From positions 1 to 36,432 of the forward strand of contig CAMOCC010000022.1 in the NCBI GenBank assembly GCA_946610035.1: DNA of 36,432 nt. Reading direction: 5' to 3'. Under the pieces are notes generated by a model. That model was not told the origin of the DNA. It did not search any database and saw only the letters and a program-made list of their open reading frames with translations. Positions 20,862 through 36,432 of this stretch are shown in pieces. Position numbers and translations under genes: made by a program. The stretch comes from an uncultured Verrucomicrobiota bacterium. GTDB taxonomy: Bacteria; Verrucomicrobiota; Kiritimatiellia; RFP12; UBA1067. The stretch's first letter is position 1. The number at the start of each line of letters is the position of its first letter.

Positions 20862-23800
20862 AATTTGATCTGACACAGCCTGGTCTTTACTATCTTCTGA
20901 ATACGCCAGAAGTAAAGGCGGAAATAGAACGACTGAAACTTAACGAGAAGGCCTCATATGAAGAAAAGCCGGACGCAGATACTATCGCGCGCATGATGGC
21001 GCGGGCGATTTCTGACGAAGTAGAAAAGTTTATTGCAGATAAATTAAAAGAAGAAGCCGCAAAGGAAGATCGCTCCGACGATTGGGTGCATGATGCTCTT
21101 AAGAACCTTCCAGAAACAATTGAGTTAAAGAATGCAGCGGCAAGAACCTTGCCAGCAGAAGGAACGACCGATAAGAACATCTTGAAAGAAATCAAGTTGA
21201 TTCCGGATGCGGATGAAACAGAACGTCCAAATACTGATCTGACTGAATCTGAATTGATCGTTCCAAATGGACGTTCATTGCAGCTGGGCAATGAGATTGA
21301 GCGAGAGCTGAAGTCATGCGAAAGTGCCGACTGGCTTGTTTCATTCATCAAGCTCAAGGCAATAAGGGCTTTCTATCCACAACTCCAGCAGTTTTGCGGC
21401 AGGGCAAACTCAGATGGTTCGCCTCGATTGCGAATCGCAACAACAACGTATATGGGGGCGACCGACTTGGAGGCGCTTAAGCTGCTTTTTAAGCTCCCCA
21501 ACACCGAAGTGAAAATCTGCTTCAACACATCGCAGACAAGACTTCATGCCAAGGCGTATATATTTCATCGTAAAACGCAGTTTGGCTCCGCTTACATTGG
21601 TTCTGCGAATCTTTCTTCTCAGGCGCTCACATCTGGTCTTGAGTGGACTATTAAGGTTGCACAGCAGGAAATTCCGCATTTGTGGGCTCGATCAATAGTT
21701 GAGTTTGAATCGTGCTGGAATGACGAGAACTTCGAAACATGCACAGAGGGCGACATTGACCGGATCAGAGCGGCGTTGAATGACAACAGGGTCCAGGTCG
21801 CGACTTGCAAGAAACCCGTTTCCGATGAGAGCCTGCGTTCATATGTGACCATTCATCCTCATTCATACCAGGCCAAAATGGTTGCTGAGCTTGCGGCAGA
21901 GCGTGACTTGGGGAAGCATCGCCATCTTATTGCCTCTGCAACTGGAACGGGAAAGACTATTGTTGCGGCATTTGACTACGCAAATGAGGCAAGGAAGTTG
22001 AAGCGAAAGCCAAAGCTGTTGTTTTTGGCTCACAGGAAGGATATCGTCGAACAGGCCAGGGAGAAATACCGGGCCGTGTTGCAAGAGCCTAAATTTGGCG
22101 CATTGATTTCTGAGGGGGCGTCATTTGACTCGCAAGCGGCAGAGCAGATTTTTTGTACGGTTCAGTCATGGGCAACGCACGTCTGTAAACAGCTGCCGTA
22201 TAATTTCTTTGATCTTATTGTTCTGGACGAGTGTCATCATGCGGCGGCAGCGTCATACCAGGAAATAATCCAGTTTTACCACCAGCCGATTGAGAGTGGC
22301 AAGACGGATTTGCTTGGATTGTCTGCGACTCCGTTTCGTGCAGACGGCAAGGATATCCGAGGCGACTTTGGCGGTGACTTCACGCATGAGTTGTCTCTTG
22401 CTGAGGCGATAGAGCATGGCCATATCGTTCCTTTTACTTATTTCGGTATTGATGATGACGTTGACTACTCTGATGTAAATTGGGGACAAGGCGAGAAAGA
22501 GCAGATAGAAAACATCTTGCATCACAACGGCAAGCATCTTCAGAATGTCCATCAAACAGTTCTGAAGTATGTCGCAGACCTGTCGTTGTTGCGAGCCGTT
22601 GGTTTTTGCGCGGGGTTGAAGCACGCGCATGCGGCCTGTGATTATTTCAACGAGAAGGGGATAAAATCTATTGTCTTGTCGGGATCTTCTTCTGAAGAAG
22701 AACGGGCAAAGGCAATGGATGCGATAGCCAGGATGGAGCCTGATGTCAAGGTCATCTTTACGGCCGATCTATTTAATGAAGGCGTGGATATTCCATCAGT
22801 GAACACGGTCTTGATGATGCGTCCGACGAACAGTCCGTTGATTTTCCTGCAACAGCTCGGGCGTGGATTGCGCATTGCGCCACCGCAGTATCAAAAAGAT
22901 GATTTGCTTGTCCTTGATTTTGTTGGGAATCACAACTCCAAGTATCGTGGGTTTGAGCGCTACTTGTTCATGTCCACGAGAAAGGATATTCCTTTGCAGG
23001 AGCAGGTCAAGAAGGGAATGCCGTTTCTTCCTGCAGGTTGCTCAATCTCGCTTACTGAACAGGCACAAACAAAGGTGCTTGAGAATATTCAGAAGCACAT
23101 GGCGGCACTCCGAGGGAACACACTTAAGAGCCATTTGATAAACGTTATTCGCGATGCCCGCATACATTTGCCACTTCGCCGCTTGATGGATGAGATATCT
23201 GCGTCGTCGCCCGCGCCAATTTTCCGTTATACGTTGCCCGCGGCGCTGGAGGCGAAGGCGCTGGGTATTGATGGTCCTGAAGATGAAATGGGGAAAGGGT
23301 TTAATTCCTTGGCTCAGACAGACAGCCCGCGGATGATCAACGCATGGATTAAGGTGCTTTCCGGTTGCACAGAGGGCATGTCTCCCGATGATGTAAAGTA
23401 TGCGAAGTTTTTCCTGTTGTCGGCATTTGATTCGAAGGTCGGAATGAATAACGTTGATGCAGTGTGGCATAAGATTATGGCGCGCACAGGAGTTTGTCGT
23501 GACTTGTGCGAGTTTCTGGAGTGGCGCCAAAGTAAGTGTGCTCCGTTGGAGTATCAGATATTCCCGCAGACGTCAAAGTATCTAGAGTTGCATCGTTCGT
23601 ACAATTCCAAGCAGATATATGCGGCGTTAGGCACTAACGGTATGACGTTGGTTAGTGGAGTTTATTATTGCAGGGAAAGAATGATGGATGCGTTTTTCAT
23701 AACGCGATTAAAGGGCGATAAGGATTTCTCGCCTACAACCATGTACAAGGATCATGCAAAATCGCAGAACATCTTTCATTGGGAGAGCCCTAATAATACA

Positions 23801-24504: not shown

Positions 24505-26523
24505 ATGACAAAGCTTGAAGAACTGGACGAAAAGATTAAGTCCTATCATCCGACTGAAACAGAGTTAGAGCAGGCGAAGGTTGCTGGCGAGCAGCGGGTT
24601 GCGTTCGTGGCAAAGTTCCCAATAGCCGAACTAGACCATCTGACGCCGGAATCCTATTGTATCGGCCATGGCGACAAGGAAAACTTTTGCTGGTGGATTG
24701 AACGAGGAACAAACGGAATGTCGAGTTATTTCCCTGGTTCCTCACGGAGTTACGGTATGTTTTGGGAGAAGGATACCAATTCATATCAGATGACTATGGC
24801 CTTGAAACGTTATAAGGATTTACATTCGGATGCCGACAATGGAACAATATTGCATGAGGTGATCGCTAAGCCACTTAAGGCACTAGTTGAAGCTCATGGT
24901 CAACAAGGGACATTCGATTCAATTAATTGTGTCGGCAAGAGTTTTCTGCTGAAGATTCTGATTTTGTATTACCCAGACGAGTTTCTCCAAGTCAACAGTA
25001 CGCATTGGATTGACACCATAATTGACGGCTACGGTCTGGGAAAGCCGGAAAGTTATGTTGATCGCAACAAGGTACTGCGCAAGTTCTACGAGGATAAAAA
25101 GAAACTGGTGCAGGGAGGTGAATTGACGCAGCAGGCCTTTGTAGGCGTTATTGCTCGGCAGCTCGGAATCGTGCGTCCTCGCTTCTGGCACATGCAGCTT
25201 CATCCGGGAAGTGATTCACAGTTTAGCCAGGAAGATGTCCTTAAAATACTCAAGCAGTATGGCGTTGTTGGAATGGGTGAAGCGTGGGACAATGACGGCG
25301 GCCAGCCGGAACAGTTCGCTGGGGACATGCACGAGGGTGATGTCATCGGGATACGGGAGAAGGGGTTTGTCGCGCTGGTCCGGGTGACTGGACCCTGCCG
25401 TAAGAACGATCAGAAGGATGAGTTGAATTGGTTTGACATTGTCCGCCCCGTAGAAGTTCTGAGTGAGGATGCTGCTGACTATATCGAAAAGTATAGGGAG
25501 AAAACCGGGAAAGGGCCACATGACAATTTGTACAATCTTGCGACGTTGAGCGAAGTCAAGCCAACGTGCAAGAACAAGTTCTTGAGCTTTTGGTATGATG
25601 CTGTCATGGGGATGAGTGCTGTTGATGATGGAAAGATAGATAATTCTGGTACTAAGCCTTTGCCTGATAATGGGGGGAAGGTTTACGGGAAGACAGAATT
25701 CTTGCGAGACGTGTTTGTTTCGGTTGAAACCTTCGATCTGATGGTATCGCTCCTCGAAAAGAAGAAGAACATCATTCTGACCGGCGCGCCGGGCGTGGGA
25801 AAGACCTTTGCCGCGCGGCGCCTTGCTTGGGCGATGATGGGGGAGCGCGATGATGAACGCGTGGAGTTCGTCCAGTTCCACCAGAGTTACGGATACGAGG
25901 ATTTCATCTGCGGCTACAAGCCGTCCTCTGATGGTGGATTTGAACTTCGCGAAGGTGTGTTCTACACATTCTGCAAGAAAGCGGAAAACGATCCATACAA
26001 AGACTATTTCTTCATCATCGACGAGATAAATCGCGGGAACATCTCCAAGATTTTTGGTGAGCTATTGATGTTGATTGAGGCGGACAAGCGCGGGGATCAG
26101 GCCTATGCGGTACGTCTCGCCTACAGACCAGACGAGCAGTTTACGGTTCCCAAGAACCTTTACATCATTGGGTTGATGAATACGGCCGATCGTTCGTTGG
26201 CGATGATGGATTACGCGCTTCGCCGTCGGTTCAGCTTTATTTCCATGGAGCCTGGATTCGATTCGGCGGGGTTCGCTGCGCTTATGTCGGGCGACGACAA
26301 GATGAAAAGGCTTGTTGAAGCCGTGAAGAAGCTCAATAACGAAATCATAGCCGATGCTTCTCTCGGAAAGGGCTTTGTCATCGGACATAGCTTTTTCTGC
26401 GGCGAGCTGAGTCCAGAGGAAATCGTACGTTACGATATCGGGCCGACACTCGACGAATATTGGTTTGACAATCAGTCGAAGGCCAACGAGGAGAGAAACA
26501 AACTTTTGAATGCGATACGATGA
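24505..26523 (+). CDS. mcrB: McrB-like AAA+ GTPase with N-terminal specificity region
   Basis: 672 residues. The C-terminal 270 are the McrB NTPase: Walker A GAPGVGKT (427-434), FVQFHQSYGYEDFICGYKP, Walker B FFIIDEINRGNISKIFGELL (D506, E507) and the McrB signature MNTADRS (558-564), then ALRRRF. McrB translocates DNA using GTP and drives the McrC nuclease at modified sites. The N-terminal 400 residues are unlike E. coli McrB: residues 95-220 hold a helical domain with LLKILILYYPDEFLQV, and about 225-315 hold a segment starting RFWHMQLHPG with GDVIGIREKGFVALVRVTGP, which resembles an EVE-type modified-base reader. The latter is inference. AAGGAG at 24491-24496 fixes the start. Confidence 0.92.
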   Translation: MTKLEELDEKIKSYHPTETELEQAKVAGEQRVAFVAKFPIAELDHLTPESYCIGHGDKENFCWWIERGTNGMSSYFPGSSRSYGMFWEKDTNSYQMTMALKRYKDLHSDADNGTILHEVIAKPLKALVEAHGQQGTFDSINCVGKSFLLKILILYYPDEFLQVNSTHWIDTIIDGYGLGKPESYVDRNKVLRKFYEDKKKLVQGGELTQQAFVGVIARQLGIVRPRFWHMQLHPGSDSQFSQEDVLKILKQYGVVGMGEAWDNDGGQPEQFAGDMHEGDVIGIREKGFVALVRVTGPCRKNDQKDELNWFDIVRPVEVLSEDAADYIEKYREKTGKGPHDNLYNLATLSEVKPTCKNKFLSFWYDAVMGMSAVDDGKIDNSGTKPLPDNGGKVYGKTEFLRDVFVSVETFDLMVSLLEKKKNIILTGAPGVGKTFAARRLAWAMMGERDDERVEFVQFHQSYGYEDFICGYKPSSDGGFELREGVFYTFCKKAENDPYKDYFFIIDEINRGNISKIFGELLMLIEADKRGDQAYAVRLAYRPDEQFTVPKNLYIIGLMNTADRSLAMMDYALRRRFSFISMEPGFDSAGFAALMSGDDKMKRLVEAVKKLNNEIIADASLGKGFVIGHSFFCGELSPEEIVRYDIGPTLDEYWFDNQSKANEERNKLLNAIR

Positions 26524-27581
26524 CGGTCAAGGGCATAAATATCCTGAACATCTATTACATGCTCGCGTATGCGTTCAAGGCGCTTCGCGAAGGCGTGTAT
26601 TCGAACATGTCTGGCGAAGATTTCGAGCACGCCGAAGACCTGTTTGGGGAGATATTGTCTTTGGGGTTGTCCCATCTTTTGAAGCGCGGCCTGCTCCGGA
26701 TGTACGAAGAGATCCATGAAGACATGGCCGGGTTGCGCGGGAAGATCAACATGACGGGGACGATTCGGCATCTGCAGAATAAGCGGCAGGTCATATCCTG
26801 CGTTCACGACGAGTTCTCGGTCAACAACGGCTTTAACCAGATTCTGAAGACCACGGCGGTCGCACTTCTTGGCACGGGCAAGCTGGAGCGCAGCGGGAAA
26901 AGACTCAAGCGGGCGCTCTCCTTCTTTGGAGATGTGGACACTCTTGACATCCATCGTATCAGGTGGAGTGCCTTACGGTATGAGAGAAACAACCAGCACT
27001 ATCTTATGCTCATTAATGTTTGCAAGTTTGTAATTGACGGCTTGCTGCTGGATGAAGCCCATTCTGTGAATCGTCGAATTCGGGAGATGGAGATTGATGA
27101 AGACAACATGGCGTCACTTTATGAAGGGTTCATTCGTGAATACTATGCACGGCATTATGATCTGCATGCAATGTCAAAGCAGATAGCCTGGGACGTTCCG
27201 CACGGGACGGATGAATCTCTTCTGCCCACGATGCAGTCCGACGTGATGCTTTCGGACGCGTTGAAGACGTTGATTATCGATGCCAAGTTCTACGGATCGA
27301 TCATGCAGATGCATTGGGATCGTTTATCGATTCGAAACAGCCATCTTTATCAGATACTAGCGTACGTGAACAACCAGCAGGCGGTGGAGCCGCGCAAACC
27401 TATCGGTGGAATGCTCCTTTACGCCAAAACTTCTGAGAATGCTCCAGAACCCGCGACTTGGACGATCGGCGGACATGACATAGCCGTGCGAGTTCTTGAT
27501 CTAGCAAAGCCGTTTGCGGAGTTGTCAAAGCAACTTGATGAAATCGTAGCAATGACCTTTGGAGCAAGGCGGAAAGTCTAA
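26520..27581 (+). CDS. mcrC: McrC-like nuclease subunit
   Basis: McrC is the PD-(D/E)xK endonuclease partner of McrB and cuts modified DNA. The 353-residue product has the N-terminal INILNIYYMLAYAF, the SVNNGFNQILK segment and a nuclease core with MQSDVMLSD (D241) and LIIDAKFYG (D254, K256). The start ATG overlaps the mcrB stop (ATGA at 26520-26523), as is usual for McrBC pairs. All catalytic residues are visible. It ends before a 60-base gap that precedes the first MGLVKTRRL peptide. Confidence 0.95.
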   Translation: MTVKGINILNIYYMLAYAFKALREGVYSNMSGEDFEHAEDLFGEILSLGLSHLLKRGLLRMYEEIHEDMAGLRGKINMTGTIRHLQNKRQVISCVHDEFSVNNGFNQILKTTAVALLGTGKLERSGKRLKRALSFFGDVDTLDIHRIRWSALRYERNNQHYLMLINVCKFVIDGLLLDEAHSVNRRIREMEIDEDNMASLYEGFIREYYARHYDLHAMSKQIAWDVPHGTDESLLPTMQSDVMLSDALKTLIIDAKFYGSIMQMHWDRLSIRNSHLYQILAYVNNQQAVEPRKPIGGMLLYAKTSENAPEPATWTIGGHDIAVRVLDLAKPFAELSKQLDEIVAMTFGARRKV

Positions 27582-27641: not shown

Positions 27642-27806
27642 ATGGGACTCGTGAAGACCAGACGATTGGCGGCGATGCAGAAGCAGACCACGTACGCCAA
27701 GGTTACGGTGGTCAGGCAGCGCGCAAAGGCGGGGATGAAGTCGCCGGTGAAGAAGGGTGGGGATATGTTGTCGGCAAATAGAAGGGATAATGGCTATGGA
27801 TTGTAG
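27642..27806 (+). CDS. Repeated basic small peptide MGLVKTRRL, copy 1
   Basis: 54 codons. The first 33 encode the basic peptide starting MGLVKTRRLAAMQKQ and continuing TTYAKVTVVRQRAKAG. Over 27642-27740 it differs from the copy at 34082 by 8 bases in 7 codons, and every change is synonymous. The 3' end is not shared and runs into the start of the PLD-NTPase gene, overlapping it by 17 bases in another frame. Translation through this frame could therefore control that gene. Function unknown; basic, no membrane segment. A typical sigma70 box is not visible just upstream. Confidence 0.65.
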   Translation: MGLVKTRRLAAMQKQTTYAKVTVVRQRAKAGMKSPVKKGGDMLSANRRDNGYGL

Positions 27807-29805
27807 AGACGACATGGATTTGTTTGGCGGAACTGATGCAGCAGGCGGTTTGCGAGCCGATGTTAGGCTCGACGTTGCCAAGCTCGACTACATGTCCTCG
27901 GAGTCGATGACATGGCAGGAGCTGTTTGGCGGATTTGACCGCCTGAGGGCGATTACATATTCGTCTGGCATTGGATTCGTATATCAGCTTATAGAGATGT
28001 TCAAGGACGTGGAAATCATCTTCGGTTGCGAGGAGGTGATGTCGTATAACCTTCAGGAGATCATGGCGTACCAGTCGAAGCTGATGGAGCGCATCCGTGA
28101 GGCCGATTCCAAGTCAAAGACGAAGATGATTGAACGCGTTGAATCCGGGGATATCCGACTCTTTGTCGCCCGAGAAATGCTTTCTCACGAAAAGCTATAT
28201 CTTCTAGAGGCCGATGATGGACGTAAACGCGTTATCCTGGGCTCCGCGAACATGTCGTTCAATGCCTTCCGCGGACGGCAACGCGAGACAATATGCTACA
28301 TTGATTCTGATGCGGCGTACGAGAGGTTCAATGAGGCCTACGAAGATTTGAAGGGCATTAGCGTCGATACCATTACAAAGAAGGCCATAGTCGTTGGGGA
28401 TGCGTCGGAGAATTTGGATGCGCTGCCGATAGCTGAAACGGTCAAGGTGAAAAAGGCCGTCTACATCGAACCCGCGAAAGATGCAGATGAAGAGGTTCGG
28501 TTCGTTCTTGACACTCGTGAACTTGCGAAGAGAATCAAGCCGGCCATTCCAATCACAAAGGCTGACAAGAAGGCAGGCAAGATTTTCATATCGTCAGAGA
28601 TTATCCAGAAGGTGCGTCGCCAGGTTATTCGGGATACCGAGCGCGAAAAGGAATTGAGAAGTGAGTATCCGCAGCTTGTCATAGATTCGGAGCATGGCAC
28701 TGTTTCATTAAACGGCAAGAATCTAGACTTGAATCCTGATGCCGATGCAGTGAAAAGCGACGTCGACATGTTCATTCGCTACATGAATGGATATGAGCGT
28801 TTCCACGGCGACAGCAAAGGGATGCAGAATCGCTACTACGAGTTTGCCAACTGGTTTTTCTGCTCGCCACTCATGGCTGTTATGCGTGACACTGCCTTGC
28901 GATTTGACCAGAAGACTCTGCCATATCCTGTGTTTGGGCTCGTCTATGGACAGTCAAAGGCGGGTAAGACATCTTTTCTTGAGACGATTCTCAAGATGAT
29001 GATTGGTCAGAAGACCAAGATGGGCGCGCCGGAGTTTACTCGCACGGCCATTGACGGGCTCCGTCATAGAGTCCAGGGCGCCCCCATAATTGTTGACGAC
29101 CTTACAAACAACAGGTTCAATCAGCATGCCGTCGAGACAATCAAGAATGACGATTTCGGCTTGTTGGAGCATTTAGTTCATTACCCAGCAGTTGTCATAA
29201 GCGCGAACGAAGATGTCAAGGCAGTGGCGCAAGAGGTGATCCGCCGAACAGTTATATGTCGCGTTCAGGCCGGCCTTACTAACACTGAAGTCATGAAGAG
29301 CAATGTCGTTCGCGCTGTCCAGCAGAAGATTGGAACGGCGTTCTATCGCGAATATCTGCGCTTGATGTTGGGGAAGATTCCGGACATGATGGACCAGCTG
29401 AAGGATGACAATCCGGAGTCGGAATGCCCAGACATACTGAAGGTTTCTTCGGAAGTGTTGTATGAAATCTTCTCGGCGCATGAGAGCGAGTTACCTTCAT
29501 ATATTCGCAAGTTGTCGCTTGAAGACTATTTCAGCGAAAAGGTGACTGGCAAATATGCGATTCAGGTGATTAAAACTGCGTGGTCTAGCAATCCAAAGTC
29601 TTTCGAGGTTGATGAGCGCGCGGGAACTGTCCGCTATGATGCCGGCGTAAACTGGGACGCCGATAGGCTCATGAAGGAGCTGCCGGAGAACCTTTGTGCC
29701 AAGCGCTCTCGCGACAGCGTCATCATGGAGCTCGACGAAGCGAGAGAATTCTTTGGAATAGATTTCAGGCGGAAGTCGTTCCTTTCTCGCTTGTTGGGAA
29801 AATGA
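27790..29805 (+). CDS. PLD-like nuclease fused to a P-loop NTPase
   Basis: 671 residues. About 40-190 are a phospholipase D-type nuclease domain with SHEKLYLLE (H133, K135) and ILGSANMSFNAF (151-160). About 200-330 are charged linker helices. About 330-510 are a P-loop NTPase with Walker A YGQSKAGKT (387-394), Walker B APIIVDDLTN (D436, D437), sensor-like VVISANED (N473) and possible arginine fingers in EVIRRTVICRVQ; the layout resembles SF3/AAA-type helicases. The last 160 residues are helical. A single HKD half-motif implies a dimer, as in BfiI-type nucleases. ATG 27790 or 27796 are both possible (GAAGGG at 27781). I know of no characterised system with this fusion. Confidence 0.85.
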   Translation: MAMDCRDDMDLFGGTDAAGGLRADVRLDVAKLDYMSSESMTWQELFGGFDRLRAITYSSGIGFVYQLIEMFKDVEIIFGCEEVMSYNLQEIMAYQSKLMERIREADSKSKTKMIERVESGDIRLFVAREMLSHEKLYLLEADDGRKRVILGSANMSFNAFRGRQRETICYIDSDAAYERFNEAYEDLKGISVDTITKKAIVVGDASENLDALPIAETVKVKKAVYIEPAKDADEEVRFVLDTRELAKRIKPAIPITKADKKAGKIFISSEIIQKVRRQVIRDTEREKELRSEYPQLVIDSEHGTVSLNGKNLDLNPDADAVKSDVDMFIRYMNGYERFHGDSKGMQNRYYEFANWFFCSPLMAVMRDTALRFDQKTLPYPVFGLVYGQSKAGKTSFLETILKMMIGQKTKMGAPEFTRTAIDGLRHRVQGAPIIVDDLTNNRFNQHAVETIKNDDFGLLEHLVHYPAVVISANEDVKAVAQEVIRRTVICRVQAGLTNTEVMKSNVVRAVQQKIGTAFYREYLRLMLGKIPDMMDQLKDDNPESECPDILKVSSEVLYEIFSAHESELPSYIRKLSLEDYFSEKVTGKYAIQVIKTAWSSNPKSFEVDERAGTVRYDAGVNWDADRLMKELPENLCAKRSRDSVIMELDEAREFFGIDFRRKSFLSRLLGK

Positions 29806-29807
29806 GT

Positions 29808-29832
29808 GTGACTATGGGGACCCCATAGTCAC
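29808..29832. promoter_or_regulatory. Perfect 12-bp inverted repeat between two genes
   Basis: GTGACTATGGGG and CCCCATAGTCAC are separated by one A and begin 3 bases after the PLD-NTPase stop. There is no T-tract on the + strand (AAAGAAGAAAATC follows), so a classical terminator is unlikely. Its symmetry suits a dimeric DNA-binding protein or a recombinase site; an RNA hairpin with a 10-bp stem is also possible. Confidence 0.6.
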
Positions 29833-29887
29833 AAAGAAGAAAATCATTCATAAATCACAAGTAAATGCAAAACAACAAAGGGCCGTC

Positions 29888-30970
29888 ATGAATTATTCCG
29901 ATTCAGCTCAGAAGATAAAGGAAGTGTGCATCGGCAAGGGACTGTTGCGCTTTGATGAAGAAGAGTGCAGCCTCTGGGAACCGGCTATACGCGTTAGGTT
30001 CAACAATGCCAAGGCATTCTGGCAGCATATGTTTTCATTTTCGTCCGGCAACTTGTTTGGATACTTGATTTTGACGAACATGAACGTCTGGGTGTTCAAC
30101 GATGTGCAACAGCTTAAAATTCCGATTGAAACCGTGCGGACTGCGTCGGTGAAAGAAGGGCTGTTTTCCCCTTCTCTGGAAATATTCGCCAGAGACGGCG
30201 AGATCCATCGGTTCACGTTTTTCGATGCCTCGCAACAAGTGGTCAGACGTCTGACCGAGGAGGCGGTAAAAAAGATTACCGATCTAGCCATTGAACCTGT
30301 CAAGACCAAAACGCAGATTGAGCAGGAGAAGAAGGCAAAAGAAGATGCCGAAGAGCTCGAAAAGGCAAGGAAGAAGGCCGCGCGCAAGGTAAAGAAGGAG
30401 GCGCGTGACCGAGAGCGGAAAGAAGAAGAGGCAAGAAGGGCTAAGGAGGCGGAAGAATTCGCTGAAAGAATGCGTCGCGAGAGCGAGAAGACCAGGGCGG
30501 ATTTGCTTGACAAGCACTACAGACGTTATGCAATCAGGGAAATAGCCGAAGGCCATGTGCCGCCAAGGCTCACCAAGGAGGAGTACGACGAGGGATTCTT
30601 TTCTCCGTGGCTTGAAGAACAGGAGGAAAAAGAAAAAGAGCGCTACGACGCCGAATGTCGGCAATGGGAGCAGGAACAACGCGAAAAAGAGCGGGAAGAC
30701 GAGAAGCGAAGGGAAAAGGAGGAGCAGGAACGGCAGAGTTATCTGGCGGATAAGATGGAAGAAGAGAACGCGCAAAGACTCGCCCGGCGAGATGAGATTC
30801 TCGCCATGATAGAGCGCGAGGCTCTTGATGCAAAGAGCAGAATCCTGTTTTCACGGCGGGAAATGGATGCGGATGAGAAGCGGAACCTGGCGGAGTTCTG
30901 GTATTCGTCCACGAAGTCTGCTCTGCTCACGAGATACGAAAAAGAGCTGGCTGCGATATGTAAAGGGTGA
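29888..30970 (+). CDS. PH-like domain plus long coiled-coil protein
   Basis: 360 residues. The first 130 look like a bacterial PH/GRAM-type beta domain: GYLILTNMNVWVFND, KIPIETVRTASVKEG, LEIFARDGEIHRFTFFD, then an amphipathic helix. Residues about 140-310 are extremely charged, Glu/Lys/Arg-rich coiled coil (EKARKKAARKVKKEARDR and others), interrupted near 220-245 by GHVPPRLTKEEYDEGFFSPW. The C-terminal 50 are helical. No enzyme motif is seen. AAAGGG precedes ATG 29888. It follows the PLD-NTPase gene by 82 bases and is probably co-transcribed, so it may be a sensor or scaffold for it. That is inference. Confidence 0.8.
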   Translation: MNYSDSAQKIKEVCIGKGLLRFDEEECSLWEPAIRVRFNNAKAFWQHMFSFSSGNLFGYLILTNMNVWVFNDVQQLKIPIETVRTASVKEGLFSPSLEIFARDGEIHRFTFFDASQQVVRRLTEEAVKKITDLAIEPVKTKTQIEQEKKAKEDAEELEKARKKAARKVKKEARDRERKEEEARRAKEAEEFAERMRRESEKTRADLLDKHYRRYAIREIAEGHVPPRLTKEEYDEGFFSPWLEEQEEKEKERYDAECRQWEQEQREKEREDEKRREKEEQERQSYLADKMEEENAQRLARRDEILAMIEREALDAKSRILFSRREMDADEKRNLAEFWYSSTKSALLTRYEKELAAICKG

Positions 30971-31029
30971 AAGGGGCAAAGCTTATTGATACAGCTTGAT
31001 TGATACAGTAGCAATCATATGCGGATGTC

Positions 31030-31440
31030 ATGGGACTTGTTAAAACAAGAAGGCTGGCAGCGATGCAGAAGCAGCAGCGCGCAAAGGCGAACGGATCGCC
31101 CAAGCCGATACTGGAGACGAATACCCATCGTGATTACTTCACGTTTATATTGCCGATCCATGAGATGTTCCTGAAATCTGACGCTGAAACGGTGCGCGAA
31201 TTGAATGTAACCGACCCTGTTGAGGGAGTAAATGAGGGAGTAAATGAGGGAGTAAAAATTCTCCTCGCGGCCATTCGCAAGAATCCGGGAAAACGGACCA
31301 ATGAGCTTGCTTTGCTTATCGGGAAAAGCGTCCAGACGGTTGAGCGTTATGTCAAGGAATTGAAAGGTGCTGGTGATATTGAATTTCGTGGTGCACCTAA
31401 GAATGGCGGATATTTCGTAATTGATAACGAGGAACGCTGA
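31030..31440 (+). CDS. MGLVKTRRL peptide copy 2 fused to AlbA_2-type regulator C-terminus
   Basis: 136 residues. The first 15 are the repeated peptide MGLVKTRRLAAMQKQ. Relative to copies 1 and 3 exactly ten codons (TTYAKVTVVR) are missing, after which QRAKA continues in frame. The rest, NGSPKPILETNTHRDYFTFI onward, is the end of an AlbA_2/divergent AAA-4 (RecG-like annotated) regulator: a three-fold EGVN linker (12-base repeats at 31222-31257) and a winged-helix domain TNELALLIGKSVQTVERYVK with the closing FRGAPKNGGYFV. The N-terminal AlbA_2 domain is gone, so this is either a fused remnant or a stand-alone DNA-binding protein. Confidence 0.65.
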   Translation: MGLVKTRRLAAMQKQQRAKANGSPKPILETNTHRDYFTFILPIHEMFLKSDAETVRELNVTDPVEGVNEGVNEGVKILLAAIRKNPGKRTNELALLIGKSVQTVERYVKELKGAGDIEFRGAPKNGGYFVIDNEER

Positions 31441-31443
31441 GCC

Positions 31444-31569
31444 GTGCAAATTATCATCGAGGGGTATCAGTATCCGGCGGGATCGGTCGACAAGGTCCTG
31501 TGGGAAGGTGCCTTTCAGACGGTGGACGGCAAGGTCTCCATCGGATATGTGGGGTATTTTGTCATTTGA
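31444..31569 (+). CDS. Short remnant reading frame
   Basis: 41 codons from GTG 31444, 3 bases after the previous stop (VQIIIEGYQYPAGSVDKVLW..., ending SIGYVGYFVI). The sequence is protein-like and reads as the first part of a longer gene that has lost the rest. I do not recognise the family with confidence. It lies just before the ankyrin gene. Confidence 0.4.
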   Translation: MQIIIEGYQYPAGSVDKVLWEGAFQTVDGKVSIGYVGYFVI

Positions 31570-31626
31570 GTGTGTTGTGCTATGGTGCCCCCATGGTGCG
31601 CGCAGAGCTTCGCAAGAGAGTTGAAT

Positions 31627-33840
31627 ATGGTTGTTGTAACCCCATACGATGAGAAACTGAAACCGTTGATCGAGGCTGTGCGCAGCGGGAACCTTGACTA
31701 TGTTCGAAAGTGGATGGAATCAGGAGAGCCTATCTATAATCCAAAATCGCGGACGTCGTCGGTGTTGGAGGTCGCGTCGGAATCGGGCTTCTTTTCAATG
31801 TTGGAATTGTTGTTGTCTGTTGGTGGCTGGGAACAGTATGCGAACACGATGAATTCAGCGTTGAGGGATGCTGTTCTATATCCACACGTTGATAACGCGC
31901 GAATTCTTTTAGATCATGGTGCCGATCCAAATTATGTACAGTGGTATTCGATTTTTGAATCCCATAAACGTGATCTTGTAACGGCATTCCTCGAACACAA
32001 TAAAGACACGACGGACATTGACAGCGGCATCGATGAAGTAGAGTGGGGGACTGCGAGGGCGCTGCGAGATTGGTTCGAACAGGATCGCTCCATGGAAGTC
32101 CCGTTGCTACGGAAGATGATTGAACTTATTGATGAGATTTATGAGAATTCTACGTGGTACATTGGACGGAACGACGATTATAAGCAAAGTGAACAACAGA
32201 TAGCGGCGGCCAAGCAGGCAGAACGAATCTTTTCGCTGATTCGATGGATTGGGGTGGATGTGCGTAGGAGTATCGTAGTTGATGAGGATGATGGTGCTAA
32301 AGATTCAGTTTTCGCTGCAGCAGTCCGCAAGGGAACCCGAAATCTGCTTAGGTCTCTGGGGCATAATGATTCTGATGCAAAGTTGTTGAATGAGGCGGCG
32401 AGGGACATGGAATGGTGTGACGCAACTAAGGCTGATTATATGTGCAAATGCGGTCTCGTTGTCAATGATCGAGAAGACGGCACCTCTACTTTGTTGTTAT
32501 CGCATTTTAAGCAGCAGAACGAAGCCATAGTCATATATCTTGCAGACCATGGGGCTAAAATGCCCCAAGTCGATGCTGAAACATTGAAGGAATGGCAGTC
32601 TCACTTTTATAAATATTCGAAGCCCATGCCGGGTGTCTTATTATCTCTTGCCAAAATCCTAACTCCAGAACAGATGGCCATCGCTATACATGGGATCAAG
32701 GCTGTTGATGTTTTTGGTGCTGATGAAGAAACGATAGTCGAGGATTTATATAATGCTGACAAATCGCAGTCACCTGATGCATTCACAAGATGCATGGAGA
32801 AAGTTAAAGCAACTATAAAAGGCGCTGTGTTACATCCGCTTGCTCGAAACTTCAGAGGCTATTGTCTTCGGTCTGATCGTGAGCCGTATCCTCCGGAATA
32901 TGTGCGCATGTTTGGGCGTCAAGTCAAGATGTGTAATTTCAGGGGTAATGAATGCTCAAAAGAGATTCGCCCATGGATTGTCTGTGTTCTAAATCAGTTT
33001 ATCCCCAAATGCATTGAAAAAGGTGCGAAGTTCAAGTTTAAGGAAATATCAAACGGGTATGGTTATCGGAATGACAGGCCAGACGTTGATTTTATAGCTG
33101 AGATAGATGGGTATGATGTCCCGCTTGTGTTCCGAGAGGGGAAGATTAAGCCCAAAGCATATCTACTTCGCGAGCCTGTCGCGGGGGATGTTTATTCTGG
33201 TAAACTTCAATTCTGTCATCGGCTAGATCGGTCGTTGGGCTCGCCGGAAGTGATTCTGAGGGAGCACAAGTATCTATGGTTTCAGGATCACATAGAAGAA
33301 ATGGTCGACGGTTTGTTTGCCGTCGTAGCGAAGAAAAAGAAAGCTGAAGTTCGCGAAAAGGAACGGCAGGAGCGCTTTGAACGTGAGCGTATAGAACGTG
33401 AGAGAGCCGCTCGGGAGCGTGAAGAGAAGCGAATGGAGGAAGAGCGTTTGCGGGCTGAGGAGGACCGTAAGCGGCGTGAGGCGGCGGCGGCAACGGAGGC
33501 ACGAAAGGCGGCGGCAGAAAAGCTATTCAACGATGTTCTGCTTAAGGCGAAGGTGGCTGAAGATTGTTGCCATGTTCGTGCTTATCTGGATGAATTACGA
33601 CAATCAGTGGGGAACTTGGAGTCTGAGGAGCGTGCGAAGATGCGGGCATGGTTTGAGAGCGTCGAGGCGGTACTTGCGCAGAAAGAGCGATGGAGTCATG
33701 ATCCATTTTCAAAAGCTGAACCAGTTCAGATGGAATTGACTCATCCGCCTCAGCAAGTGGACGTTGATGGCTTCTCGGGTATTGGAACAAGTTCGCAATG
33801 CAATTATTGGTCAAGTAGAGGGTGGTGGAATAAAAGGTAA
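31627..33840 (+). CDS. Ankyrin-repeat protein with C-terminal coiled coil
   Basis: 737 residues. The N-terminal 150 contain ankyrin-like repeats (PLIEAVRSGNLDYVRKWMES, VLEVASESGFFSMLELLLSV, ARILLDHGADPN, KRDLVTAFLEHNK). Another such segment occurs near 280-330 (STLLLSHFKQQNEAIVIYLADHGAKM). A central domain of unknown type follows at about 390-560, and residues about 568-632 are a continuous Glu/Arg coiled coil (REKERQERFERERIERERAA). The tail ends with an aromatic SSQCNYWSSRGWWNKR. No catalytic motif is visible. I start at ATG 31627; a longer in-frame start at 31570 has no support. GC is lower than in the core. Probably a protein-protein interaction factor; a role in defence is only suggested by location. 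Confidence 0.8.
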   Translation: MVVVTPYDEKLKPLIEAVRSGNLDYVRKWMESGEPIYNPKSRTSSVLEVASESGFFSMLELLLSVGGWEQYANTMNSALRDAVLYPHVDNARILLDHGADPNYVQWYSIFESHKRDLVTAFLEHNKDTTDIDSGIDEVEWGTARALRDWFEQDRSMEVPLLRKMIELIDEIYENSTWYIGRNDDYKQSEQQIAAAKQAERIFSLIRWIGVDVRRSIVVDEDDGAKDSVFAAAVRKGTRNLLRSLGHNDSDAKLLNEAARDMEWCDATKADYMCKCGLVVNDREDGTSTLLLSHFKQQNEAIVIYLADHGAKMPQVDAETLKEWQSHFYKYSKPMPGVLLSLAKILTPEQMAIAIHGIKAVDVFGADEETIVEDLYNADKSQSPDAFTRCMEKVKATIKGAVLHPLARNFRGYCLRSDREPYPPEYVRMFGRQVKMCNFRGNECSKEIRPWIVCVLNQFIPKCIEKGAKFKFKEISNGYGYRNDRPDVDFIAEIDGYDVPLVFREGKIKPKAYLLREPVAGDVYSGKLQFCHRLDRSLGSPEVILREHKYLWFQDHIEEMVDGLFAVVAKKKKAEVREKERQERFERERIERERAAREREEKRMEEERLRAEEDRKRREAAAATEARKAAAEKLFNDVLLKAKVAEDCCHVRAYLDELRQSVGNLESEERAKMRAWFESVEAVLAQKERWSHDPFSKAEPVQMELTHPPQQVDVDGFSGIGTSSQCNYWSSRGWWNKR

Positions 33841-34081
33841 TAGTTAAATAGGTCCGGAGTCGAATAGGGGCAGGACCCATTGATACTGTAGGATCATAAA
33901 GGGGCTGAACTAATTGAGACGGGACTCGAACGGGTTAATGCTTGTTGAAACAGCTCGATTGATGCAGTGTCCGACTTTTCGTGTATTTCGTGGTTAATCC
34001 TCCGCGGCGGATTTGCCGCGGTGCGCGGCTATACGGGAAGAAGGGGATATGGTATAATGTATGCGTAAACGGGATGATTAT
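33841..34081. other. Intergenic region with hairpin, dispersed repeat and promoter
   Basis: No gene. ACAGCTCGATTGATGCAGT at 33950-33968 resembles ACAGCTTGATTGATACAGT at 30991-31009, upstream of peptide copy 2. The palindrome CGCGGCGGATTTGCCGCG at 34003-34020 recurs at 36278-36295. TGGTATAAT at 34050-34058 is an extended -10 that would start transcripts of peptide copy 3. Confidence 0.6.
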
Positions 34082-34264
34082 ATGGGACTTGTAAAAACCA
34101 GAAGACTTGCGGCGATGCAGAAGCAGACCACCTACGCCAAGGTTACGGTGGTCAGGCAGCGCGCGAAGGCGGGGATGAAGGTTGTGAAACCTTGTAGTAA
34201 GTTCCAGGGCAGTTCATTTGAAGCAGGCTTAAAGATACGCTTACGAGGGAATGGAGGCAGATGA
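34082..34264 (+). CDS. Repeated basic small peptide MGLVKTRRL, copy 3
   Basis: 60 codons from ATG 34082. The first 33 codons (34082-34180) encode exactly the same peptide as copy 1 at 27642, while 7 of those codons use a different synonym. The remaining 27 codons (VVKPCSKFQGSSFEAG...) are not shared. The upstream TGGTATAAT at 34050-34058 gives it its own promoter, so the ATG at 34061 is too close to the box and is not used. The stop lies 1 base before ATG 34266 of the next small frame. Confidence 0.65.
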   Translation: MGLVKTRRLAAMQKQTTYAKVTVVRQRAKAGMKVVKPCSKFQGSSFEAGLKIRLRGNGGR

Positions 34265-34626: not shown

Positions 34627-35196
34627 TCAATCGCTCGGCCATTTGAAGCCAAAGTCGCTGCGCTTGATTTTGCACTTAGGTTCCCCGTCGAGCCAGAACA
34701 CTATGCCCTCTATGTTGTGAAAACCGAGATAGTCCCTCAATTCGACGAATGAGCGCGGGCAATCGTGGATGACGTCCGCACCGTGGCGGACGAGTGTGTC
34801 ATGCGTGAGGCCGTAGGGATTCTTCTGAAAGTGAGGTCCGATTGCCTCGTATGTGCCATCCTTAAGCTTGAATCCGCCCGCATTGTACAGTGCTGCGAGA
34901 TGCCAGTTGTCAGCCGTGTTGGTGAAATTACATTCAATCCAATGCGGCCAATGGCCGGTGATTGGATCTGGCGTGCAGCAGGGAATCGCGCCAGCGGGCG
35001 GCACCTTGCCTTTTTTCGCGTCGTAGCGGCGGTAGAATCTGCCGGAATTGATGGCACAGCATGTGCCATCGTACTTTACTGTGGCGACTCCGCGTCCCTC
35101 CAGTACCCATTCAAACCCGGGCGTCAGTTCGTCTGTAGTGGTCAGGTGGCTGGCATCATGGTAGATTCGTTTGAAGAGAGTGGGTATTTTCTTCAT
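34627..35196 (-). CDS. RNA-ligase-like nucleotidyltransferase
   Basis: 189 residues, minus strand. The pattern is that of the covalent nucleotidyltransferase fold of ATP-dependent RNA/DNA ligases: motif I VKYDGT with Lys41 as the expected AMP-accepting residue, motif III-like YEAIGPHF (117-124), motif IV IEGIVFW (162-168) and motif V CKIKRSDFG (K176, K178). It is close to the small stand-alone RNA ligase family often labelled DUF5565. Such enzymes seal or repair RNA, for example after anticodon nuclease damage. AAAAGGAG at 35203-35210 fixes the start at 35196. It is downstream of the MGYTT-family gene by 40 bases, so the two form an operon. Confidence 0.82.
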   Translation of the reverse strand: MKKIPTLFKRIYHDASHLTTTDELTPGFEWVLEGRGVATVKYDGTCCAINSGRFYRRYDAKKGKVPPAGAIPCCTPDPITGHWPHWIECNFTNTADNWHLAALYNAGGFKLKDGTYEAIGPHFQKNPYGLTHDTLVRHGADVIHDCPRSFVELRDYLGFHNIEGIVFWLDGEPKCKIKRSDFGFKWPSD

Positions 35197-35235
35197 GGCA
35201 TTCTCCTTTTCAGCTTTTGGTTGCATTTGGGGGTG

Positions 35236-35997: not shown

Positions 35998-36239
35998 GTC
36001 CGATTCCTTTCGCCTGCATTGCAGGATGCGTTTGCGTTTCGCCGACGGCACGCGCCGTCGCTGCAGTTTGGAATCGGCTCTGCCAGCCATGCCGCTGAGC
36101 GGCGTCCGCGTTTTTCAGCGGATTACCTCGCTACCCGGCCCAATGCGGATTCCTGCGGATCTCCTTCGCCGCAGGCCCGGTCCGGACGGCTTCCGTTTTA
36201 TATCCCCATCCCGGGGCATCAATTCCCGAAAGCGACAAT
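35998..36239 (-). ncRNA. Hairpin-rich leader, candidate structured RNA
   Basis: Between the minus-strand promoter at 36240-36248 and the ATG at 35997 lie about 240 bases with several strong hairpins: CCTGCGG/CCGCAGG at 36152-36175, CGACGGC/GCCGTCG at 36043-36060 with a 4-base loop, CCTGCA/TGCAGG at 36013-36025, and CCGCTG/CAGCGG pairing in 36091-36121. Leaders of housekeeping genes in this window are far shorter. It may be a cis-regulatory RNA or a separate small RNA. No known class is recognised. Confidence 0.4.
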
Positions 36240-36248
36240 ATTATACCA
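36240..36248 (-). promoter_or_regulatory. Extended -10 promoter of the ligase operon
   Basis: Read on the minus strand this is TGGTATAAT preceded by a T-run (TTTTTTGG), the same form as at 17941 and 19580. It would transcribe the structured leader and the two minus-strand genes. Confidence 0.6.
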
Positions 36249-36318
36249 AAAAATAGCCGTTGTGTGGCGGCGTTGTTCGCGGCGGATTTGCCGCGCTTGT
36301 GATAGTGGGTGCCCGCTC

Positions 36319-36348
36319 TTGACCGCCTTCGGAATCTTATGGTGTAAT
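36319..36348 (+). promoter_or_regulatory. Promoter at the right edge
   Basis: TTGACC (36319-36324) and TGTAAT (36343-36348) with an 18-base spacer. It is followed by an inverted repeat ATATCGGC/GCCGATAT (36356-36363 and 36378-36385) that could be an operator, and then the partial gene at 36393. Confidence 0.45.
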
Positions 36349-36392
36349 TTCCCCGATATCGGCAAAATGCGAATAATGCCGATATTTGGAAA

Positions 36393-36432
36393 ATGGTTGC
36401 GAAACTGTCAGAATGGGTCCGTAAGTACGGGA
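36393..36432 (+). CDS. Start of a gene cut by the window edge, possibly IS607-type recombinase
   Basis: Thirteen codons, MVAKLSEWVRKYG, then the window ends. KLSEW-x-x-K/N-G at the very N-terminus is how many IS607-family serine recombinases begin (their MerR-like helix-turn-helix). TTGGAAA before the ATG is a weak ribosome binding site. The evidence is short, so this is a tentative reading. Confidence 0.3.
   Translation, partial: MVAKLSEWVRKYG

Follow-up and report, generated by a model that had tools for sequence, protein, structure and literature searches.

The window, which is the whole 36,432-nt stretch of DNA analysed here from an uncultured Verrucomicrobiota bacterium, carries three copies of a short basic peptide gene. 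Comparison with related genomes suggests that a repeated seam, of which this gene is the coding half, joins accessory and often anti-phage cassettes in one direction. We consider it probable that the seam is a translated joint, at which recombination swaps defence genes and across which translation is handed on from one gene to the next. Recombination between seams would allow cassettes to be gained, lost and swapped, and the seam would relay translation from one cassette to the next whatever the neighbours. The sequences compared contain a peptide conserved at the protein level, its placement at the joints, flanks shared on one side only, recombinant copies and defence genes among the cassettes. 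The seam bears on how bacteria gather anti-phage genes and rearrange them elsewhere than in integrons and phage-borne hot spots, and it is accessible to direct tests of recombination, translation and peptide activity. At the level of titles and abstract openings no description of such a seam was found in the literature, which does not prove its absence from print.

Copies of the peptide gene in the window

The copies begin at 27642, 31030 and 34082, all on the + strand, as the earlier note had read them. No other copy was found in the draft source genome (88% complete; n = 3 in total); one extra weak match was unrelated on reading and another had an E-value of 0.5. Copy 1 (27642..27806, + strand, 54 aa) lies 60 nt after the stop of a McrC-like gene (26520..27581, + strand, PF10117, E = 3.2e-29), which follows a McrB-like AAA gene (24505..26523, + strand, PF07728, E = 3.8e-23). 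Its own stop overlaps the start region of the next gene, a PLD-nuclease/ATPase gene (27757..29805 with a putative start, + strand, PF09565, E = 1.4e-8), and the pairing of copy 1 with this gene recurs in genome G045 at a DNA identity of 95%. Copy 2 (31030..31440, + strand, 136 aa) starts 59 nt after the stop of a 360-aa gene (29888..30970, + strand). Its conserved part takes up about codons 1-20 and is followed in frame by a winged-helix part (PF13412). An ankyrin-repeat gene (31570..33840, + strand, PF12796, E = 1.9e-7) has copy 2 on one side and copy 3 (34082..34264, + strand, 60 aa) on the other. Left of the McrB/McrC pair the window contains a PLD-helicase, a DUF1016/YhcG nuclease and an HNH gene, and these three, the McrB, McrC and PLD-nuclease/ATPase genes and the ankyrin gene, seven in all, are on the + strand.

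Two other readings were considered and rejected. The view of copy 2 as a remnant of the AlbA_2 gene that follows the seam of G040 is not supported, as there is no real similarity between them. The form of 108-130 aa was rejected as the general ancestral protein, its C-terminal part being matched in only 5 of 61 genomes of the genus, in 2 of them weakly.

Selection on the peptide sequence

Copies 1 and 3 differ at 8 bases in 7 of 33 codons; all differences are synonymous and the protein is identical. The earlier note had concluded from this that the amino-acid sequence is under selection, and the conclusion holds across 28 distinct uninterrupted copies from related genomes, for which dN/dS is 0.06 (0.062 over codons 2-19 and 0.028 over codons 2-9). 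In the same copies the mean heterozygosity at codon positions 1, 2 and 3 is 0.060, 0.037 and 0.311. A wider set of 70 distinct copies uses all six codons at Leu3, all four at Val4 and Thr6, and five each at Arg8 and Leu9. This set favours a conserved protein, because its members were recruited by protein similarity and could differ in GLVKTRR by no more than one residue. As a check on recruitment bias, sets were recruited by the upstream motif alone or by the downstream tail alone. Their deviating cells were synonymous and non-synonymous in ratios of 54:26 and 85:37, where 28% of single changes are expected to be synonymous, and the non-synonymous cells came mostly from displaced, broken or unrelated sites.

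GTG stands for the ATG start codon in 3 of the 70 copies, and GTT, ATT or ATA in another 3. Some copies are broken. A stop follows an insert in G027, G100 (27295), G105 (3295) and G045:C125, the last having a large palindrome with an in-frame stop (locus L076, 6267); G101 has a stop at codon 5, and G006 a frameshift, near the start in contig C78 (locus L079, 2082).

No known protein family was found for the peptide in Pfam, PHROGs or PDB, where the best E-values (0.12 to 0.88) were taken as chance, and the result that the earlier note had named as refuting, copies that belong to a single known gene family or a transposon end, was sought and not found. A likeness to the arginine-rich RNA-binding peptides of phage antiterminators is not claimed, there being no PDB or PHROGs match. 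Since the first 20 or so residues are conserved under selection, it is probable that this basic micro-protein does something itself, and it may bind nucleic acid. It might also be the small anti-phage peptide that the earlier note suggested.

The repeated unit and its arrays

The peptide ORF is the coding half of a repeated unit of about 130 bp, read in 70 distinct copies. In array-rich genomes about 45 nt before the ATG are conserved as well and consist of TTGAYACAGTAG-like repeats followed by GCGCGAGAGGTGATGTC. The DNA upstream of the three starts had been described as not alike. That is correct among the copies of the window. The 53 nt that precede copy 2 (30977..31029, + strand), with direct repeats of TTGATACAG, nevertheless recur without a change in G096, ahead of a copy whose preceding gene is a different one, and they align with the conserved upstream half in the array-rich genomes. 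From the ATG onwards, the first 57 nt of copy 2 and of the G096 copy differ at 7 sites, all synonymous. In G102:C128 (locus L136, 8961-8977) the upstream half immediately precedes a different ATG and the peptide is missing, as is also the case at a similar site in G101:C64; the two halves can therefore part.

Arrays are found in RUG14821 (G099), with 7 copies in 6 kb, and in RUG572 (G100), with 9 strict copies in 17 kb. In 9 of 11 genomes searched by way of such loci, every match at E <= 0.01 is on a single contig, two of these nine having only one match. No opposite-strand copies were found in 36 contigs, 14 of which have at least 2 strict copies. The tails of the peptide vary between copies.

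Genes of the cassettes

Forty genes at seam loci, mostly immediate neighbours and some one gene further, were hand-picked after their starts had been read. Nuclease, restriction, abortive-infection or candidate defence families account for 22 of the 40, as compared with 0 of 16 controls, a share possibly inflated by the hand-picking; the link with defence genes proposed from the window alone is borne out by this comparison. Among the 22 are NERD (4), GmrSD (2), AbiEii (2), Schlafen helicase (2) and one each of PDDEXK_7, PDDEXK_4, Nmad3, AbiEi, NYN, AIPR, HsdR, KAP, Vsr, YhcG, AlbA_2 and HNH. Seven others are AAA_14/DUF4143 (twice), DUF6994 (below cut-off), RadC, DnaJ-like, CoiA and metallo-beta-lactamase, and 11 of the 40 have no Pfam family. 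A conserved coding seam is a simple handle, as its sequence locates arrays together with uncharacterised cassettes. The controls were the largest one or two ORFs of each of ten arbitrary stretches of the same genomes (one stretch gave none); the 16 include one group II intron reverse transcriptase and 8 ORFs without a family. PADLOC has models for 6 of ten seam-locus genes (five of the ten in the window); the 4 without a model include the PLD-nuclease/ATPase gene and the McrC-like gene.

The gene content bears on the most serious alternative, which we consider possible but rather unlikely. The peptide might be an ordinary micro-protein, a cassette-borne partner or regulator of defence genes, the re-joining of cassettes being an unselected by-product of homologous recombination between repeats. 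Low dN/dS across the first 19 codons and variable tails agree with such a partner, as do placed crossovers spread within the unit, which ordinary homologous recombination predicts. However, the peptide has no constant neighbour: the commonest neighbour clusters are common to only 5-6 of 28 loci, the families beside it are highly diverse, and the non-coding upstream half is conserved between seams too.

Recombination at the seam

We checked 400 nt on each side of a copy for a colinear match to another contig. Among 159 flank matches, which are not independent since the contigs are related, 76 were on the left only, 81 on the right only and 2 on both sides. At five sets of control points, placed 700-1200 nt off, both sides matched in 22-32 of 44-91 cases and one side in 18-69. 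G103:C118 and G109:C2 have identical seams, which may yield the 2 two-sided matches and also feed the controls. When copies were paired with copies, 19 pairs shared the left flank only, 22 the right flank only and 2 both flanks, each of these two being neighbouring copies on one contig. As judged from these flanks, gene content is re-assorted across the seam almost every time, and the arrays are one-directional arrays of exchangeable cassettes. The earlier suggestion of a module spread between defence genes came close to this, but the unit is a seam between cassettes, not an N-terminal domain of the neighbours. A short repeat conserved at the protein level has to be read together with both of its flanks.

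One recombinant could be followed in detail. The G104 copy at 5047 matches the G100 copy at 22342 up to +47 and, from +77, mainly the G100 copy at 25341, with four stray left-type sites beyond +77. The 3.0 kb between these two G100 copies, with GmrSD and Nmad3 genes, are missing at that place in G104. Five more trios were compared. In one of them the switch is near +26/+30, beside an insert; in a second it lies somewhere from -7 to +68, where the sites are mixed; and in a third it is close to the ATG. The remaining two are uninformative or mixed. Those crossovers that can be placed lie within the seam, between about -15 and +77 as counted from the start codon. Because the switch points vary, homologous recombination is favoured over cutting at one fixed site, and we infer that cassettes are exchanged by this route.

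An integron-like system with an unrecognised dedicated recombinase, cutting at or near the start codon of the seam, is in our view improbable. It would agree with one-directional arrays that have, in places, about one seam per kb, and with a shared cassette that begins within 3 nt of the ATG in several contig pairs. Against it, besides the varying switch points, none of 15 seam genomes has an integron integrase (TIGR02249) over the curated cut-off, nor does any of 14 control genomes, a provisional count as the genomes are drafts. A tyrosine recombinase, the recombinase class that was looked at, occurs on a seam contig in 1 of the 15 genomes, and such genes occur elsewhere in all 15. The attC core motifs GTTRRRY and RYYYAAC have 6 and 8 matches in 70 seams of 240 nt, where about 16 are expected with uniform bases, and share no offset. 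An alignment of 18 seam sequences, folded on the + strand with RNA parameters, gave 0 predicted pairs and so no conserved fold on that one strand.

Comparison with integrons

Sedentary chromosomal integrons store defence cassettes (Darracq 2025, Getz 2025 and Kieffer 2025, as reviewed in PMC12409362), and stores of defence genes in integrons are described there for Vibrio. The seam arrays resemble integrons, as outlined in that review (PMC12409362), in being one-directional cassette arrays that include anti-phage genes and have a repeated joint between cassettes. They differ in that no integrase reaches the cut-off in the 15 draft genomes and no attC core is at a fixed place, and in that the joint is an ORF conserved at the protein level. 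Some of the genes beside the seams are also large, a 1042-aa HsdR-like protein among them. An integron is rejected on integrase and core sites, provisionally as far as the integrase count in draft genomes goes; the array works like a cassette array, and we do not call it an integron. More tentatively, the arrays might represent a gene-capture architecture separate from integrons, in which a single translated micro-ORF, as the point of exchange in arrays of defence cassettes, would be both recombination seam and ribosome relay and would also encode a micro-protein under selection, which may bind nucleic acid and act on the array or in defence. We hold this broader reading to be considerably less likely than the translated seam itself.

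Gene spacing and translation

In 29 of 64 copies the 60 nt before the start codon contain the end of an ORF on the same strand that is at least 100 aa long, compared with an opposite-strand ORF edge in 1 of 64. For all 70 copies the nearest upstream ORF of that size was sought within 400 nt: 46 copies have it on the same strand, 6 have it on the opposite strand, and 18 have none. The nearest downstream ORF, as called mechanically, is on the same strand in 37, on the opposite strand in 18 and absent in 15. The distance from the peptide stop to the next start is short at some loci (1 nt in G016 and G040, 6 in G056 and G006, -4 in G046) and longer at others. A seam that often lies just after a stop, and whose own stop often abuts or overlaps the next start, suggests a translation relay. 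Promoter-like boxes, read after the seam in some cassettes, weaken the relay idea.

It seems quite improbable that the peptide is a leader which governs the defence gene after it, by ribosome stalling for instance. A ribosome-binding-site-like AGAGGTGA or GGAGG precedes many copies, and a promoter-like box was read by eye just upstream of some, as before copy 3 (TATAAT, a -10-like box at 34053..34058, + strand). These signals, and the tight spacing of several copies to the next gene, would suit a leader. However, no conserved RNA structure is predicted from the seam alignment, the N-terminus is conserved while the part closest to the next gene varies, and many copies closely follow another gene and are not at the head of a transcript. 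Intergenic small ORFs are described in PMC8092293 as affecting the translation of the next gene. The seam ORF is like them, as presented in that source, in being a short ORF between two genes (PMC8092293). The small ORF described there (PMC8092293) is a regulator at one locus, in contrast to the seam ORF, which is repeated between unrelated genes.

Occurrence

Within the genus, matches at E <= 1e-3 were found in 17 of 61 genomes, and three more genomes with weaker scores have copies confirmed by reading. The genomes are metagenome assemblies, where titles were seen, or multi-contig drafts, and ORFs were called mechanically. In a search of relatives, 16 of 96 genomes matched at E <= 1; two matches are not seam copies, one of them being the palindrome described below in another gene. 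The 38 genomes of other genera within this search gave no match. When the GTDB r220 species genomes were scanned with a pattern, 30 loci were obtained, whose titles name Kiritimatiellae, Verrucomicrobia, Lentisphaerae, Victivallales or an uncultured bacterium, and many a ruminant gut site; one lies on a Paludibacteraceae contig that is possibly mis-binned. The arrays are known from Kiritimatiellae of ruminant guts, where a tiny conserved gene marks the joints between accessory genes.

No convincing relative was found in collections of mobile elements (viral contigs of IMG/VR, plasmids, phages), and spread on viruses or plasmids was rejected on this result. A fragment or end of a transposable element might be repeated, absent from some genomes and clustered in accessory regions as the seam is, but with no relatives in those collections, one-directional runs and protein-level selection we give this explanation practically no weight.

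Palindromic inserts

Copy 2 had been thought to have lost ten codons (TTYAKVTVVR) in frame. The reverse was found: copies 1 and 3 carry an in-frame palindromic insert of 30 nt, at 27687..27716 (+ strand, core 27688-27711, an offset of +30 relative to uninterrupted copies) and at 34127..34156 (+ strand, core 34128-34151). When the tail was sought by DNA alone in the 70 copies, 33 had the uninterrupted distance, 13 had an insert, one was 3 nt shorter and 23 had no recognisable tail. Copy 2 therefore keeps the common form, which is that of 33 of the 47 copies with a tail. The frame is kept in 11 of the 13 inserted copies with a measurable tail and lost in 2. Reading the 23 tail-less copies by eye revealed 4 inserts with an open frame (G008, G009 twice, G054) and 3 with an early stop (G027, G100, G105).

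The palindrome core occurs twice in the window, as against 0 expected from 100 shuffles, and nowhere else in the source genome. Of 96 related genomes, 32 have a near form of it, the source genome not being one of them; a reversed control pattern gave 0. In other genomes the palindrome occupies other positions of the seam ORF; near codons 9-12 there is also a larger one of about 66 nt, in either orientation. The palindrome also lies in frame within a long open frame at G036:C6:18311-18367 (locus L018, 1501-1557), which resembles, as judged by eye, a shikimate-pathway fusion gene; thus it enters other coding genes too.

In-frame palindromic elements are known from Rickettsia (RPE; Ogata 2002 and Claverie 2003, as cited in PMC3733652). 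The likeness to RPE, as these are characterised in PMC3733652, consists in short palindromes within the seam ORF, mostly in frame, and the 30-nt insert is likewise a dispersed palindrome in coding genes that mostly keeps the frame. It differs in that at least 2 kinds of palindrome enter one tiny gene, one kind in both orientations. This comparison is by description, and it accounts for the 30-nt insert, not the seam.

A perfect palindrome, GTGACTATGGGGACCCCATAGTCAC, lies directly after the stop of the PLD-nuclease/ATPase gene (29808-29832), where G045 and G012 have a seam instead. Another short palindrome, CGCGGCGGATTTGCCGCG, has two exact occurrences in the window (34003-34020 and 36278-36295), and stretches resembling it adjoin seams in other genomes. 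Similar open frames are found at the end of the window (36019-36432) and at the start of G045:C31, both of which are contig ends; this shared stretch may be a repeat that breaks the assembly at the edge of the island. Adjoining copy 3, on the - strand, is a gene with an RNA ligase 1 domain (34627-35226, PF17720, E = 7.1e-8). RNA ligases have possible roles in RNA repair or defence.
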